In this document: positions 20,635-24,011 of the stretch, piece by piece
Position numbering within the stretch: position 1 is the first letter of the stretch
Layout of the letters: each line of letters opens with the position of its first letter
DNA from: Tessaracoccus flavescens
GTDB taxonomy: Bacteria; Actinomycetota; Actinomycetes; Propionibacteriales; Propionibacteriaceae
NCBI GenBank assembly: GCA_020741375.1
Contig: DYZF01000293.1
Location: 1-24,011, forward strand
DNA length: 24,011 bases
Reading direction: 5' to 3'
Notes under the pieces: model-generated
Database searches by the model: none
What the model saw: the letters and a program-made list of their open reading frames with translations, nothing else
Told to the model about the DNA's origin: nothing
Program-made: the position numbers and the translations under genes

Positions 20635-22119
20635 TCAGTACGCGAAGGTCATGGGAGCGTCGGGATCGGTCTGAACCTCAATGGGCGCGACCTCGGGCAA
20701 CCCCGCCTTCGCGTACTTGAGGAACAGCCACACCTCGATGACGGCAAGGCCGCCGTAGATCAGGGTGTAGACGATCATGGAGAACAGCACCTCGGCCACC
20801 GACACCGTCGGGGAGACCGCGGCCATCGTCGGCATGACACCGGCGACGATCCAGGGCTGGCGGCCCATCTCAGCCATGATCCAGCCGAATGAGATGCCGA
20901 ACAGCGGCAGCAGCGGCATGCCGAACATCAGCAGCGTCCACAGCTTCGACGGCTTGGGCAGGCGATCCTTGCGAATGGTCCACAGCGTCAGCAGCGCGAT
21001 GCCCATGCCGATGAACCCGAGGCCCATCATGAGGCGGAACGACCAGTACGTGACGGGCACGTTCGGCGTGATCTTCACGTCGGGGTAGTTCTGGGCGAGC
21101 TCGGCCGCGTACTCAGACTGGAGCTTGGTCTGCGATTCGTCGTTGCGGAGGAAGCCTTCAGCGGCGTATTCCTCCTTGAGGTTGTTGATGCCCTTGACCT
21201 CTTCATGGCCGGACAGGAACGACAGCAGGCCCGGCACCTCGATGATCGGGGTGGCGTTCTCGCCGTTCAGGTCGCCGATGGTGAGGACGGAGAACGGGGC
21301 GTTCTTCGTGGTCTCGTACAGGCCCTCGGCCGCGGCCATCTTCATGGGCTGGACGTCGGTCATGACCTTCGACTGGAGATCGCCGGTGATGATCGTCACG
21401 AGCGAGCCGGCCAGCATGACCCAGGCGCCGAACTTCGTGGCGAAGCGGTAGGCCTTGAGATCGCCTTCGCGGGTTTCGCCATCGCGGTTGATCTTGGCCA
21501 TGTGCCAGCCGCCGATGGCTGCCATCAGGCCGCCGGCAACCATGTAGGACGAGGCGAGGACGTGCGGGAAGGTGACGAGGAAGACGGGGTTGGTGAGCAC
21601 CTCGAGGAAGCCGCTCACGCCGTCGAGTTCTGCGCGACCGTTGTTGAAGACGGTGCCGACGGGGTTCTGCATCCACGAGTTGGCCGCGAGAATAAAGACG
21701 GCGGAGATCATGGTGCCGATGGCCGCCATGTAGATCGTCATCAGGTGAACCTTCTTGGGGAGCTTGTCCCAGCCGAAGATCCACAGACCGATGAAGGTGG
21801 ATTCGAGGAAGAAGGCGAGTAGAGCCTCGAGCGCGAGCGGGGCGCCGAACACGTCACCGACGAAGCGGGAGTATTCGGACCAGTTCATGCCGAATTGGAA
21901 CTCCTGCACGATGCCCGTCACGACGCCCAAAGCGAAGTTGATCAGGAACAGCTTGCCGAAGAACTTGGTGAGGCGAAGGTAGGCGTCTTTGCCTGTCTTC
22001 ACCCACATCGTCTGGAGAACTGCCACCAGCATCGACATGGCGATGGTGATGGGCACAAAAAGGAAGTGGTAGACGGTGGTGATACCGAATTGCCACCGTG
22101 CAAGGGTCACAGCGTCCAT
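20635..22119 (-). CDS. cydA: Cytochrome bd ubiquinol/menaquinol oxidase subunit I
   Basis: Heme-bearing subunit of cytochrome bd oxidase. It is 494 residues, a short-Q-loop form. His18 in the N-terminal RWQFGITTVYHFLFVP segment corresponds to E. coli His19; His186 in FPHVLASSYMVAGG matches E. coli His186, the heme b558 ligand. The conserved FGMNWSEYSRFVGDVFGAPLA and LEALLAFFLESTFIGLWIFGW helices and the GRQPW motif (419-423) are intact. The enzyme supports respiration at low O2 and under cytochrome-c-oxidase inhibition. The start at 22119 has no Shine-Dalgarno but TAGGTT lies exactly 6 nt upstream. The promoter spacer holds a palindrome, and a BlaI-family gene is divergent 90 bp away. Confidence 0.96.
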   Translation of the reverse strand: MDAVTLARWQFGITTVYHFLFVPITIAMSMLVAVLQTMWVKTGKDAYLRLTKFFGKLFLINFALGVVTGIVQEFQFGMNWSEYSRFVGDVFGAPLALEALLAFFLESTFIGLWIFGWDKLPKKVHLMTIYMAAIGTMISAVFILAANSWMQNPVGTVFNNGRAELDGVSGFLEVLTNPVFLVTFPHVLASSYMVAGGLMAAIGGWHMAKINRDGETREGDLKAYRFATKFGAWVMLAGSLVTIITGDLQSKVMTDVQPMKMAAAEGLYETTKNAPFSVLTIGDLNGENATPIIEVPGLLSFLSGHEEVKGINNLKEEYAAEGFLRNDESQTKLQSEYAAELAQNYPDVKITPNVPVTYWSFRLMMGLGFIGMGIALLTLWTIRKDRLPKPSKLWTLLMFGMPLLPLFGISFGWIMAEMGRQPWIVAGVMPTMAAVSPTVSVAEVLFSMIVYTLIYGGLAVIEVWLFLKYAKAGLPEVAPIEVQTDPDAPMTFAY

Positions 22120-22209: not shown

Positions 22210-22557
22210 ATGCCGTCACGTGGAGAGCTCGAGCAGCGGGTTATGGAGCTGCTGTGGGAGTCTGACGAGCCCAAATCCGTGGCCGACGTCCATGCGGTGC
22301 TCACCGCCGAGCGCGAACTGGCCTACACCACCGTGATGACGGTGCTGGATCGGTTGGCGAAGAAGGATCTCGTCGAGCGCGAATTGGTCAACAGGGCGTG
22401 GCAGTACCGGGCGCGGTCTCCGCAGGGTGAGGTGATCGCCGCCGAGATGCTGGCGATGATCGAGAACGTGCCGACGGCGGTGCGTCTCGCAGCGTTGCGC
22501 CAGGTGTGCTCTCGGTTGAATGAGGACGAGCGCACGCAGCTGTCGTCGTCGATCTAA
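22210..22557 (+). CDS. BlaI/MecI/CopY-family winged-helix repressor
   Basis: A 115-residue DNA-binding repressor. The winged helix spans about residues 1-75: LEQRVMELLWESDEPKSVADVHAVL, then the recognition helix region LAYTTVMTVLDRLAKKDLVERE and the wing RAWQYRARSP. The C-terminal helices (VPTAVRLAALRQVCSRLNEDE) form the dimerisation part. Family members usually partner with a BlaR1/MecR1 membrane protease of family M56; none lies in this window, so the protein may sense something directly or pair with a distant protease. Its position, divergent from cydA and next to the palindrome at 22133, makes control of cytochrome bd its most likely task. A copper-responsive CopY role is less likely because no CxC motif is seen. 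Confidence 0.9.
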   Translation: MPSRGELEQRVMELLWESDEPKSVADVHAVLTAERELAYTTVMTVLDRLAKKDLVERELVNRAWQYRARSPQGEVIAAEMLAMIENVPTAVRLAALRQVCSRLNEDERTQLSSSI

Positions 22558-22697: not shown

Positions 22698-22816
22698 CTC
22701 CCAGAGCAGCGCATCGTATCTTCCTTGTTCGGCCCTCTGAGCAGTAGAACCTGAGGGGACTTTTCAGGCTCCCTGAGCAGTAGAACCCGAGTGGACTTAC
22801 CCAGCTCCCTGAGCAG
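22698..22816. repeat. Degenerate tandem repeat with a 35-36-bp period
   Basis: The core CTCCCTGAGCAG recurs at 22698 (as CTCCCAGAGCAG), 22733 (as CCCTCTGAGCAG), 22769 and 22805, spaced 35, 36 and 36 bp. Units 22733-22768 and 22769-22804 are near identical for most of their length (shared GAGCAGTAGAACC then GAG-GGACTT); the outer copies match only over the core. The rest of 22558-22697 shows looser relatives (CCCTGAGCGAG near 22650, and TCCTTGTTC twice) and no credible gene. Confidence 0.7.
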
Positions 22817-22900: not shown

Positions 22901-24011
22901 TTACTTCTTGTCTTTCTTCTTGTTGCCCTTGTCTTTCTTGGACTTGTCCTTCTTATCCTTCTTGGACTTGTCCTTGTCCTTCTTCTTGTCTTTGTCCTTC
23001 TTGGACTTCTTGCCCGACTTGTCGTCGTCGGACTTCTCGTCACTGGACTTCACGTCGCCAGATTCATCGTCGGACTTGTCGTCGACGGATTCATCGTCGG
23101 ACTTGTCGTCCTTCGACTCCTTCTTCTCCGGCTCGTCCGCCGTCGCGATCTGATCCTGCCGCAGCTCCGCCAGCAGCGCGCGCTTCTGCTCAAGGGTCGC
23201 GGCCAGCTCCGTCGTCCACTGCTCGCGGCGCTTCTCCACCTCGGCGAGCGCGGCCTCGACGGCGGCGTCGTCACCCTCGTACCGCAGGCGAGCCACGTCT
23301 TCGTTGACCTCGCTGGTGTCGGCCAGCGCGCCCAGCACGTTGTCCTCGGTCTCAGCGACGGATTCGGCGAAGGCTGTCGGCGACATCGTCTTCAGCAAGT
23401 TACGACGCTGCGTATCGGGGCGCCAGCGGGGGCGGGGCCAGCTGAGGTCCAGCTCGATGAGGGTGCGCGTCAGGATCTCGGTGATCGCGACGCGCGAGTA
23501 CCACTTCTTATCGGCGGGCACGACGTGCCACGGCGCGTGCTCGGTGTTGGTGAGCCGGAAGACGTCGGCGTACGCCTCTTGGTAGTCGTCCCACTTCTGA
23601 CGGGTGCTGAGATCGTTGGCGGAGTACTTCCAGCGCTTGTCCGGGCGGTCGATGCGCTCCATCAGGCGCTTGCCCTGCTCGTCGTGCGAGACCATCAGCG
23701 CGAACTTCAGCACGACGGTGCCGGAATCCACCAGCTGCTTCTCCCAGCGGTTGATCTCGTCGTAACGCTTGCCCCACACGTCGGGCTCCACCAGCTCGTC
23801 GACGCGTACCACCAGGACGTCCTCATAGTGTGAGCGGTCGAACAGGCCGATCTGGCCGGGCTTCGGGAGGCCCTTCTTGATCCGCCACAGGTAGTGGTGG
23901 CGCAGTTCCTCCGCCGTCGGTACCCCGAAGCTGCGCAGCGCGACGCCTTGCGGGTCCACCATGCCCATGACGTGGCGGGCGACTCCGCCCTTGCCCGCGG
24001 TGTCGAGGCCC
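22901..24011 (-). CDS. PPK2-family polyphosphate kinase with Lys/Asp/Ser-rich tail, 5' end outside window
   Basis: Polyphosphate:nucleotide phosphotransferase, moving phosphate between polyphosphate and nucleoside mono/diphosphates. The visible 369-370 residues begin in the Walker A loop (GLDTAGKGG at 24009-23983). Walker B is FDRSHYEDVLV, the lid region includes SHDEQGKRLMERIDRPDKRWKYS, and WHVVPADKKWYSRVAI is a strong PPK2 signature. The catalytic core ends near LIELDLSWPRP; then comes a region without a recognised domain, partly coiled-coil-like (AALAEVEKRREQWTTELAATLEQKRALLAELRQDQ), and finally a 74-residue tail (23125-22904) with 31 Lys, 21 Asp, 12 Ser and 4 Glu. The tail is acidic/serine-rich first, then Lys/Asp only. 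Typical PPK2 proteins of this branch are about 300 residues without such a tail. Subclass (ADP or AMP preference) is not assigned. Confidence 0.93.
   Translation of the reverse strand, partial: GLDTAGKGGVARHVMGMVDPQGVALRSFGVPTAEELRHHYLWRIKKGLPKPGQIGLFDRSHYEDVLVVRVDELVEPDVWGKRYDEINRWEKQLVDSGTVVLKFALMVSHDEQGKRLMERIDRPDKRWKYSANDLSTRQKWDDYQEAYADVFRLTNTEHAPWHVVPADKKWYSRVAITEILTRTLIELDLSWPRPRWRPDTQRRNLLKTMSPTAFAESVAETEDNVLGALADTSEVNEDVARLRYEGDDAAVEAALAEVEKRREQWTTELAATLEQKRALLAELRQDQIATADEPEKKESKDDKSDDESVDDKSDDESGDVKSSDEKSDDDKSGKKSKKDKDKKKDKDKSKKDKKDKSKKDKGNKKKDKK

Follow-up and report, generated by a model that had tools for sequence, protein, structure and literature searches.

A PPK2 gene with a lysine-rich 3' end

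The window analyzed here is one entire contig of 24,011 bases (DYZF01000293.1) from the incomplete genome of Tessaracoccus flavescens (GCA_020741375.1; 2.26 Mb, 296 contigs, 85% complete), and the element of interest is a gene at its end for a polyphosphate (polyP) kinase of the PPK2 family, the product of which finishes in a long tail of lysine (K), aspartate (D), serine (S), and glutamate (E) residues (Table 1). The gene runs past the contig end at 24011, and ~74 N-terminal residues are absent in comparison with a relative, L004 (L, G, and C numbers are our labels for loci, genomes, and contigs). Despite the lost N-terminus, the fragment matched both PF03976 (E = 3.3e-54; 184.3 bits against a cut-off of 22.3) and TIGR03709 (PPK2_rel_1; E = 4.3e-79; 265.5 bits against a cut-off of 247.2). 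The Walker A residues DTAGK lie at fragment residues 3-7 and the Walker B residues RSHY at 59-62, directly followed by E63, which is invariant in both of our alignments (A1, 27 rows; A2, 31 rows). The residue after the Walker B RSxY sets the class of a PPK2, i.e., Asn in class I, Gly in class II, and Glu in class III, and class III enzymes phosphorylate both mono- and diphosphates of nucleosides (AMP and ADP) at the expense of polyP (PMC8776046; PMC11641546; papers given by PMC number are drawn on in excerpt). By this signature, the enzyme would be a class III PPK2, a polyP-spending nucleotide kinase. Its closest PDB relatives by sequence are the enzymes of Arthrobacter aurescens (3RHF) and Meiothermus ruber (5O6K/5LC9), both class III according to PMC8776046, with cores ~50% identical to that of the window. 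However, the 3RHF and 5LC9 chains have 289 and 287 residues, with matches reaching positions 278 and 279, and are too short to hold the two-helix extension and lysine tail found here.

Table 1. Features of the PPK2 gene in the window (residue numbers refer to the fragment unless stated otherwise)
Feature	Position	Strand	Basis
Class III PPK2 gene, 5' end lost at contig end	22901..24010	-	369 codons and stop; PF03976 and TIGR03709 matches
PPK2 catalytic core, residues 1-205	23396..24010	-	Walker A GLDTAGKGG at extreme edge
Walker B D-R-S-H-Y, then E (class III signature residue)	23822..23839	-	Sequence and published rule (PMC8776046, PMC11641546, in excerpt)
Pair of long helices C-terminal to the core (residues 211-243 and 248-292), hairpin or stalk by prediction	23135..23380	-	AlphaFold
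K/D/E/S tail of 74 residues, predicted disordered	22904..23125	-	Sequence, AlphaFold
Acidic/serine half of tail (tail residues 1-37), net -9, DKSDDES repeats	23015..23125	-	Sequence; tandem repeat 23016-23110 (27-bp unit, 3.4 copies)
Lysine/aspartate half of tail (tail residues 38-74), net +15, Arg absent, at most 13 Lys in any 20 residues	22904..23014	-	Sequence; tandem repeat 22928-23002 (24-bp unit, 3.1 copies)

An earlier note on this DNA had described the tail as part of a PPK2, and our recount agrees with it exactly: 68 of the 74 residues are K, D, E, or S (K31, D21, S12, E4), an acidic half precedes a basic one, arginine is absent, TAA follows directly, and the frame is continuous with the PF03976/TIGR03709 domain. 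When the 369-residue fragment was shuffled 2000 times, the richest 74-residue stretch contained no more than 46 such residues. The DKSDDES repeats pointed out in the note are likewise present in the first half, and the DNA of the tail contains tandem repeats of 27 and 24 bp; therefore, the length of the tail has been shaped by repeat expansion. Indeed, one DKSDDES pair differs by a single base in the codon listing, and a recent duplication has therefore contributed to the acidic block. The exact repeat number is given as it stands in the incomplete assembly. We rejected the tail as an assembly artefact, since single-contig relatives (L004 from G002 and L009 from G007) are lysine-tailed too.

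An AlphaFold model, built on the 31-row alignment, was confident for the core (pLDDT mostly >90), with ten-residue block means of 93-97 through residue 290, a block mean of 74 at residues 291-300, and means of 43-53 over residues 301-369. The predicted architecture is a helical stalk followed by a disordered tail. Foldseek returned 179 PDB matches at E <= 10, and the best 50 listed were all PPK2s, with alignments spanning 176-234 columns; these 50, whose extent was given as column counts only, did not assign the helical hairpin to a known fold. The two-helix extension can be aligned in most orthologues of the genus and is similar in Nocardioides relatives, and it is missing from short actinobacterial class III PPK2s.

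Lysine-rich ends among class III PPK2s

We searched 39 genomes of the same genus set (Arachnia/Tessaracoccus, Propionibacteriaceae), of which 28 besides the window's own contained a close orthologue (59-68% identity), nine gave only a distant paralogue, and one incomplete genome gave neither. A protein was called lysine-tailed when some 20-residue stretch within its last 60 residues held at least 8 Lys. Fifteen of the 29 orthologues reached this threshold at the C-terminus, one (L018) had 7 Lys, and 13 had 5 or fewer. The tail ends differ in sequence, from a near-pure lysine run with some serine (L009) to Gly-Ser-Lys (L005), Lys-Ser-Ala (L004), and Lys-Gly (L007). The acidic and serine-rich half was rejected as a conserved unit, since an acidic block of similar length was seen, by eye, in none of the other 28 genus orthologues. 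On these counts, it is lysine, and not the acidic/serine part, that recurs in relatives. The PPK2 of L013 and L041 (Tessaracoccus lapidicaptus) departs early from the helical extension, and its C-terminal tail mixes Lys with Arg.

The background rate was estimated from genes predicted by a simple codon-usage gene caller, which covered 74-81% of the sampled DNA. Among 592 genes in 800 kb of two genus genomes, a single one passed the threshold of >=8 Lys per 20 within the last 60 residues; judged by eye, this protein does not end in a free tail but in what resembles an extracellular domain. In G572, a genome from a second family, none of 300 sampled genes reached 7 Lys per 20. These counts come from samples, and lysine-tailed proteins may occur elsewhere in the genomes; a Fisher value for 15/29 versus 1/592 ignores relatedness and was excluded from the evidence. 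General lysine richness of the genomes was rejected as an explanation, lysine making up 2.3% of residues in G009 and G007 and 1.3% in G572. In the window's own genome, 29 open reading frames (ORFs) in three stretches average 3.4% Lys, tail included.

The earlier note had proposed surveying PPK2 homologues, and lysine tails indeed recur beyond the genus. They were found in Flaviflexus, Arcanobacterium, an Actinomycetaceae metagenome-assembled genome, and strain JB111, and in one further lineage (L364). In the family of G529, 24 members were searched, 21 gave a match, and 11 of these were tailed; no lysine tail was found at the Nocardia, Mycobacterium, and Rhodococcus loci within a named set of 80. 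A tree was built from the cores of 166 distinct class III PPK2s, drawn from 185 loci (the other 19 being duplicates or failures of ORF picking, e.g., L055 and L166). Thirty-one of the 166 proteins are lysine-tailed, in a set enriched for tails, as it comprises the nearest hits and a family picked because one member was tailed. By parsimony, the tail state changed 10-11 times on this quick tree, which has no bootstrap and on which gains are indistinguishable from losses; at least five changes are forced by well-supported branches, and shuffled tail labels need a mean of 28.8. The five rows nearest to the window protein are all tailed. The note's counter-case, close relatives without a tail and a tract due to slippage only, is therefore not what we found, although 14 of the 29 orthologues in the genus do not reach 8 Lys per 20.

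Lysine-rich stretches also occur at the other end of the protein. We surveyed 163 class III PPK2s in which Walker A could be read (window excluded), taking up to 160 residues upstream of this motif. Nine (L282, L275, L169, L278, L053, L066, L139, L142, and L167) contained >=6 Lys per 20 upstream of the core and no C-terminal tail, with L282 and L169 reaching 9 and L275 reaching 8. Among the 592 background genes, one had such a stretch within its first 80 residues, a rough comparison given that the PPK2 start codons are not proven. A lysine extension at either end is what the tethering interpretation developed below predicts. Mutual exclusion of the two extensions was considered and dropped, since the numbers (9 N-terminal, 29 C-terminal, 0/163 with both) are too small to claim it.

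Other polyphosphate and polyanion enzymes

Lysine tails were not found on the three other polyP enzymes surveyed in the genus, i.e., PPK1 (0/30 loci; matches in 38 genomes), class I PPK2 (0/20 readable of 22 loci), and PPX (0/13 readable of 14 examined). A tail common to all polyP enzymes was thus rejected for these three, polyP glucokinase, NAD kinase, and CHAD proteins lying outside the survey. Wrong ORFs were dropped from the PPK1/class I PPK2 survey (L214 and L217) and from the class-wide reading given below (L166 and L380); L397 and L398 are fragments that were left out, and L395 is open-ended. The genome of the window contains a second PPK2 on another contig (C200, 3899-4576), close to class I, in the relatives of which Asn follows the Walker B motif (by eye), and a PPK1 match on the same contig (9782-11803), ~5 kb from the second PPK2 match.

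As a positive control, we took TopA of the genus, which also acts on a polyanion. It shares with the PPK2s a basic C-terminal tail, of Lys/Arg/Thr/Ala composition; however, it carries 5-7 Lys per 20 (12 loci, L311-L322), whereas the lysine-tailed PPK2s have 8-17. Lysine bias was measured on C-termini chosen by K+R (>=8 per 20). The basic PPK2 tails (34 proteins) contained 463 Lys and 39 Arg, so that lysine made up 92% of K+R; a boundary chosen by lysine gives 96%, which is biased by the choice. The corresponding share was 71% in the TopA tails and 24% in the sampled proteomes of G009 and G007, and 13 other genes with basic C-termini had 24 Lys and 35 Arg, with no tail drawable in six of them. 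Since arginine codons are favoured in high-GC genomes, the lysine excess in PPK2 tails suggests selection.

Elsewhere in the window, a BlaI/penicillinase-repressor-type regulator (PF03965) is located at 22210-22557, and the ORF divergent from it, at 20635-22119, resembles a cytochrome bd subunit (by eye). The intergenic stretch that separates the BlaI-like gene from the PPK2 gene contains a 36-bp tandem repeat (2.2 copies, 22737-22816). It was considered as part of a system and rejected, as a 15-base probe matched nowhere else in the incomplete genome.

A candidate polyphosphate tether and its alternatives

Polyacidic serine- and lysine-rich (PASK) segments are recognized by a 20-residue window with >=75% D/E/S/K and at least one K (PMC12345225). 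All 55 windows of the tail pass this rule and none does in the remainder of the fragment, compared to two of the 592 background genes of the genus, counting windows anywhere in the protein, and none of the 300 from G572. The PASK likeness proposed in the earlier note therefore stands for the window protein, but the acidic/serine half is not shared, and only 16 of the 31 tailed proteins on the tree pass. The note had further named lysine polyphosphorylation; this interaction is now reported as non-covalent (PMC12345225; PMC12077175). PASK windows, predicted disorder, and candidacy as a polyP binder are shared with yeast Nsr1 and Top1 and with E. coli YihI; unlike theirs, the segment in the window sits on a polyP-metabolising enzyme, whose relatives keep the lysine and mostly not the acidic part. 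Pseudomonas aeruginosa EngA and SrmB, which are targets of lysine polyphosphate modification (KPM) with a lysine-dense C-terminal region of 9 Lys per 20, bind polyP and lose binding upon its deletion, whereas proteins with 5 and 7 do not bind (PMC12077175). By this yardstick, the 13 Lys per 20 of the tail exceed the density of these two binders; while EngA and SrmB are reported to be implicated in ribosome assembly, polyP is PPK2's own substrate. A K-to-R change abolishes the polyP shift of PASK proteins, and YihI with its acidic residues neutralised still binds polyP (PMC12345225). AlgP of P. aeruginosa, reported to be a polyP-granule protein, has a long disordered lysine-rich C-terminus as well, though of KPAA type, while the tail in the window combines K with D and S and is carried by a kinase.

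The tail also shifts the charge of the proteins that bear it. For 14 tail-bearing genus proteins, the median isoelectric point (pI) was 8.1 with the tail and 5.5 without it, and it was 5.3 for the 13 others (including the one with 7 Lys), L027 and L031 being left out because of uncertain starts. In Ralstonia eutropha, only PPKs with a basic pI co-localise with polyP granules (PMC9239181).

Considering the tail sequence, its recurrence, the bias of lysine over arginine, the absence from three other polyP enzymes, the predicted disorder, and the charge shift, all of them results of this analysis, we infer that the tail is probably, though far from certainly, a disordered, lysine-selective polyP-binding tether that would hold the class III PPK2 on polyP. 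The acidic core, its polyP channel apart, would repel the polymer, while the lysine block, lying beyond a helical stalk and a flexible linker, would grip polyP chains or granules non-covalently. Such a grip would keep the enzyme on its polymer and could thereby raise the local substrate concentration, favour processive use, and recruit the enzyme to granules, with whatever effect on catalysis would follow. In this species, stalk and lysine block are separated by 37 acidic/serine residues, which would serve as a spacer or as a counter-charge that tunes the grip. A broader proposal, which we advance tentatively, is that class III PPK2s of several actinobacterial lineages repeatedly gained a tether of this kind, disordered and lysine-selective, at the N- or the C-terminus, for docking on polyP chains or granules, and that the window holds a two-block version in which the acidic block would tune the grip.

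Several observations weigh against tethering to polyP. The acidic block leaves the window fragment mildly acidic (pI 6.1, net -4), and a net negative charge is also retained by four other tail-bearing proteins of the genus (L009, -2; L012, -7; L020, -6; L021, -4); this residual negative charge is the main point against simple electrostatics. Moreover, the basic-pI rule predicts granule association only partly in P. aeruginosa (PMC9239181), YihI binds polyP mainly outside its formal PASK segment, and ZipA has a PASK motif yet gives no polyP shift (excerpts of the mBio study, PMC12345225). AlphaFold places a low-confidence helix (residues 341-359) inside the lysine block. Nearly half of the genus orthologues are under threshold, as given above, and class-wide, where 394 genomes were drawn, 139 gave a match at 141 places, and 90 C-termini were read, only three of the 88 readable ones were tailed (the window's own, L145, and L364). 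Judged from these surveys, the lysine tail is rare among class III PPK2s and concentrated in some lineages, and most do without it. The proposal itself, with the binding, localisation, and kinetic effects that it would entail, is drawn from sequence and prediction. Finally, lysine tails bind DNA and RNA too, and TopA of the genus is basic-tailed.

The last point belongs to one of the two main rivals, by which the tail would bind nucleoid DNA, RNA, or ribosomes, for instance so that nucleotides are recharged where RNA is made, and contact with polyP would be incidental. Lysine-rich tails are common on DNA and RNA enzymes. The KPAA tail of AlgP is reported to bind DNA, with AlgP located on polyP granules. 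However, the lysine share of the PPK2 tails exceeds that of TopA and of other basic C-termini, and class III PPK2 was the only tailed enzyme among the polyP enzymes examined, so that we regard tethering to nucleic acids as rather unlikely. The other main rival is neutral growth of the tail, in which slippage-prone DNA at the 3' end would expand runs of Lys and Asp codons that are tolerated at a disordered terminus. It draws on the 24- and 27-bp repeats, on the repeat pair that differs by a single base, and on the high variability of tail length and sequence among relatives, with frequent changes between presence and absence. Against this, only one of 892 sampled background genes compares with 15 of 29 orthologues, proteomes with 1.3-2.3% Lys and much Arg should yield arginine-rich tails, and lysine stretches are also found N-terminally, with composition kept while sequence changes; neutral repeat expansion is, in our estimate, unlikely.

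Less weight falls on two further explanations. The earlier note had suggested that the tail may help nucleate granules, and the multivalent lysine tail of an enzyme that already has a polyP channel could conceivably condense polyP and consolidate granules, with enzymatic activity secondary; overexpression of R. eutropha PPK2c alone is reported to yield large granules. However, the class III signature is one of polyP consumption, PPK1, the usual synthesising enzyme, is tail-less in the genus, and the tail is missing from roughly half of the orthologues in the genus, which makes granule building improbable and places it behind tethering to the substrate. Since actinobacteria pupylate lysines, a lysine-rich disordered end might alternatively be a site of proteasome/Pup attachment or of unfolding. 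We hold such a turnover signal to be very improbable, as it leaves the absence from the other examined polyP enzymes unexplained and calls for a lysine density far below the one observed, which goes far beyond one attachment site.

A tether for polyP would be new as the combination of a known enzyme class with a known type of polyP-binding sequence, changed repeatedly in evolution. The earlier note knew of no described PPK2 with such a tail, and none was found by searches of the open-licence PMC library, judged by titles and abstract openings (subscription papers lay outside this scope), but the arrangement is not unique to the window protein. A basic pI predicts which polyP enzymes go to granules in R. 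eutropha and does so only in part in P. aeruginosa (PMC9239181), and the orthologues with and without a tail form a natural paired test set. The genus is listed as a putative polyP accumulator (PMC5406452), and class III PPK2s are of interest for ATP regeneration (PMC11641546). If the broader proposal is true, these enzymes carry their own polymer-binding module, similar in role to carbohydrate-binding modules but built of low-complexity sequence. If the tail tethers, it would offer a polyP-docking module that is portable, lysine-polyP binding would have a direct physiological client, and enzymes of ATP regeneration would gain a handle.
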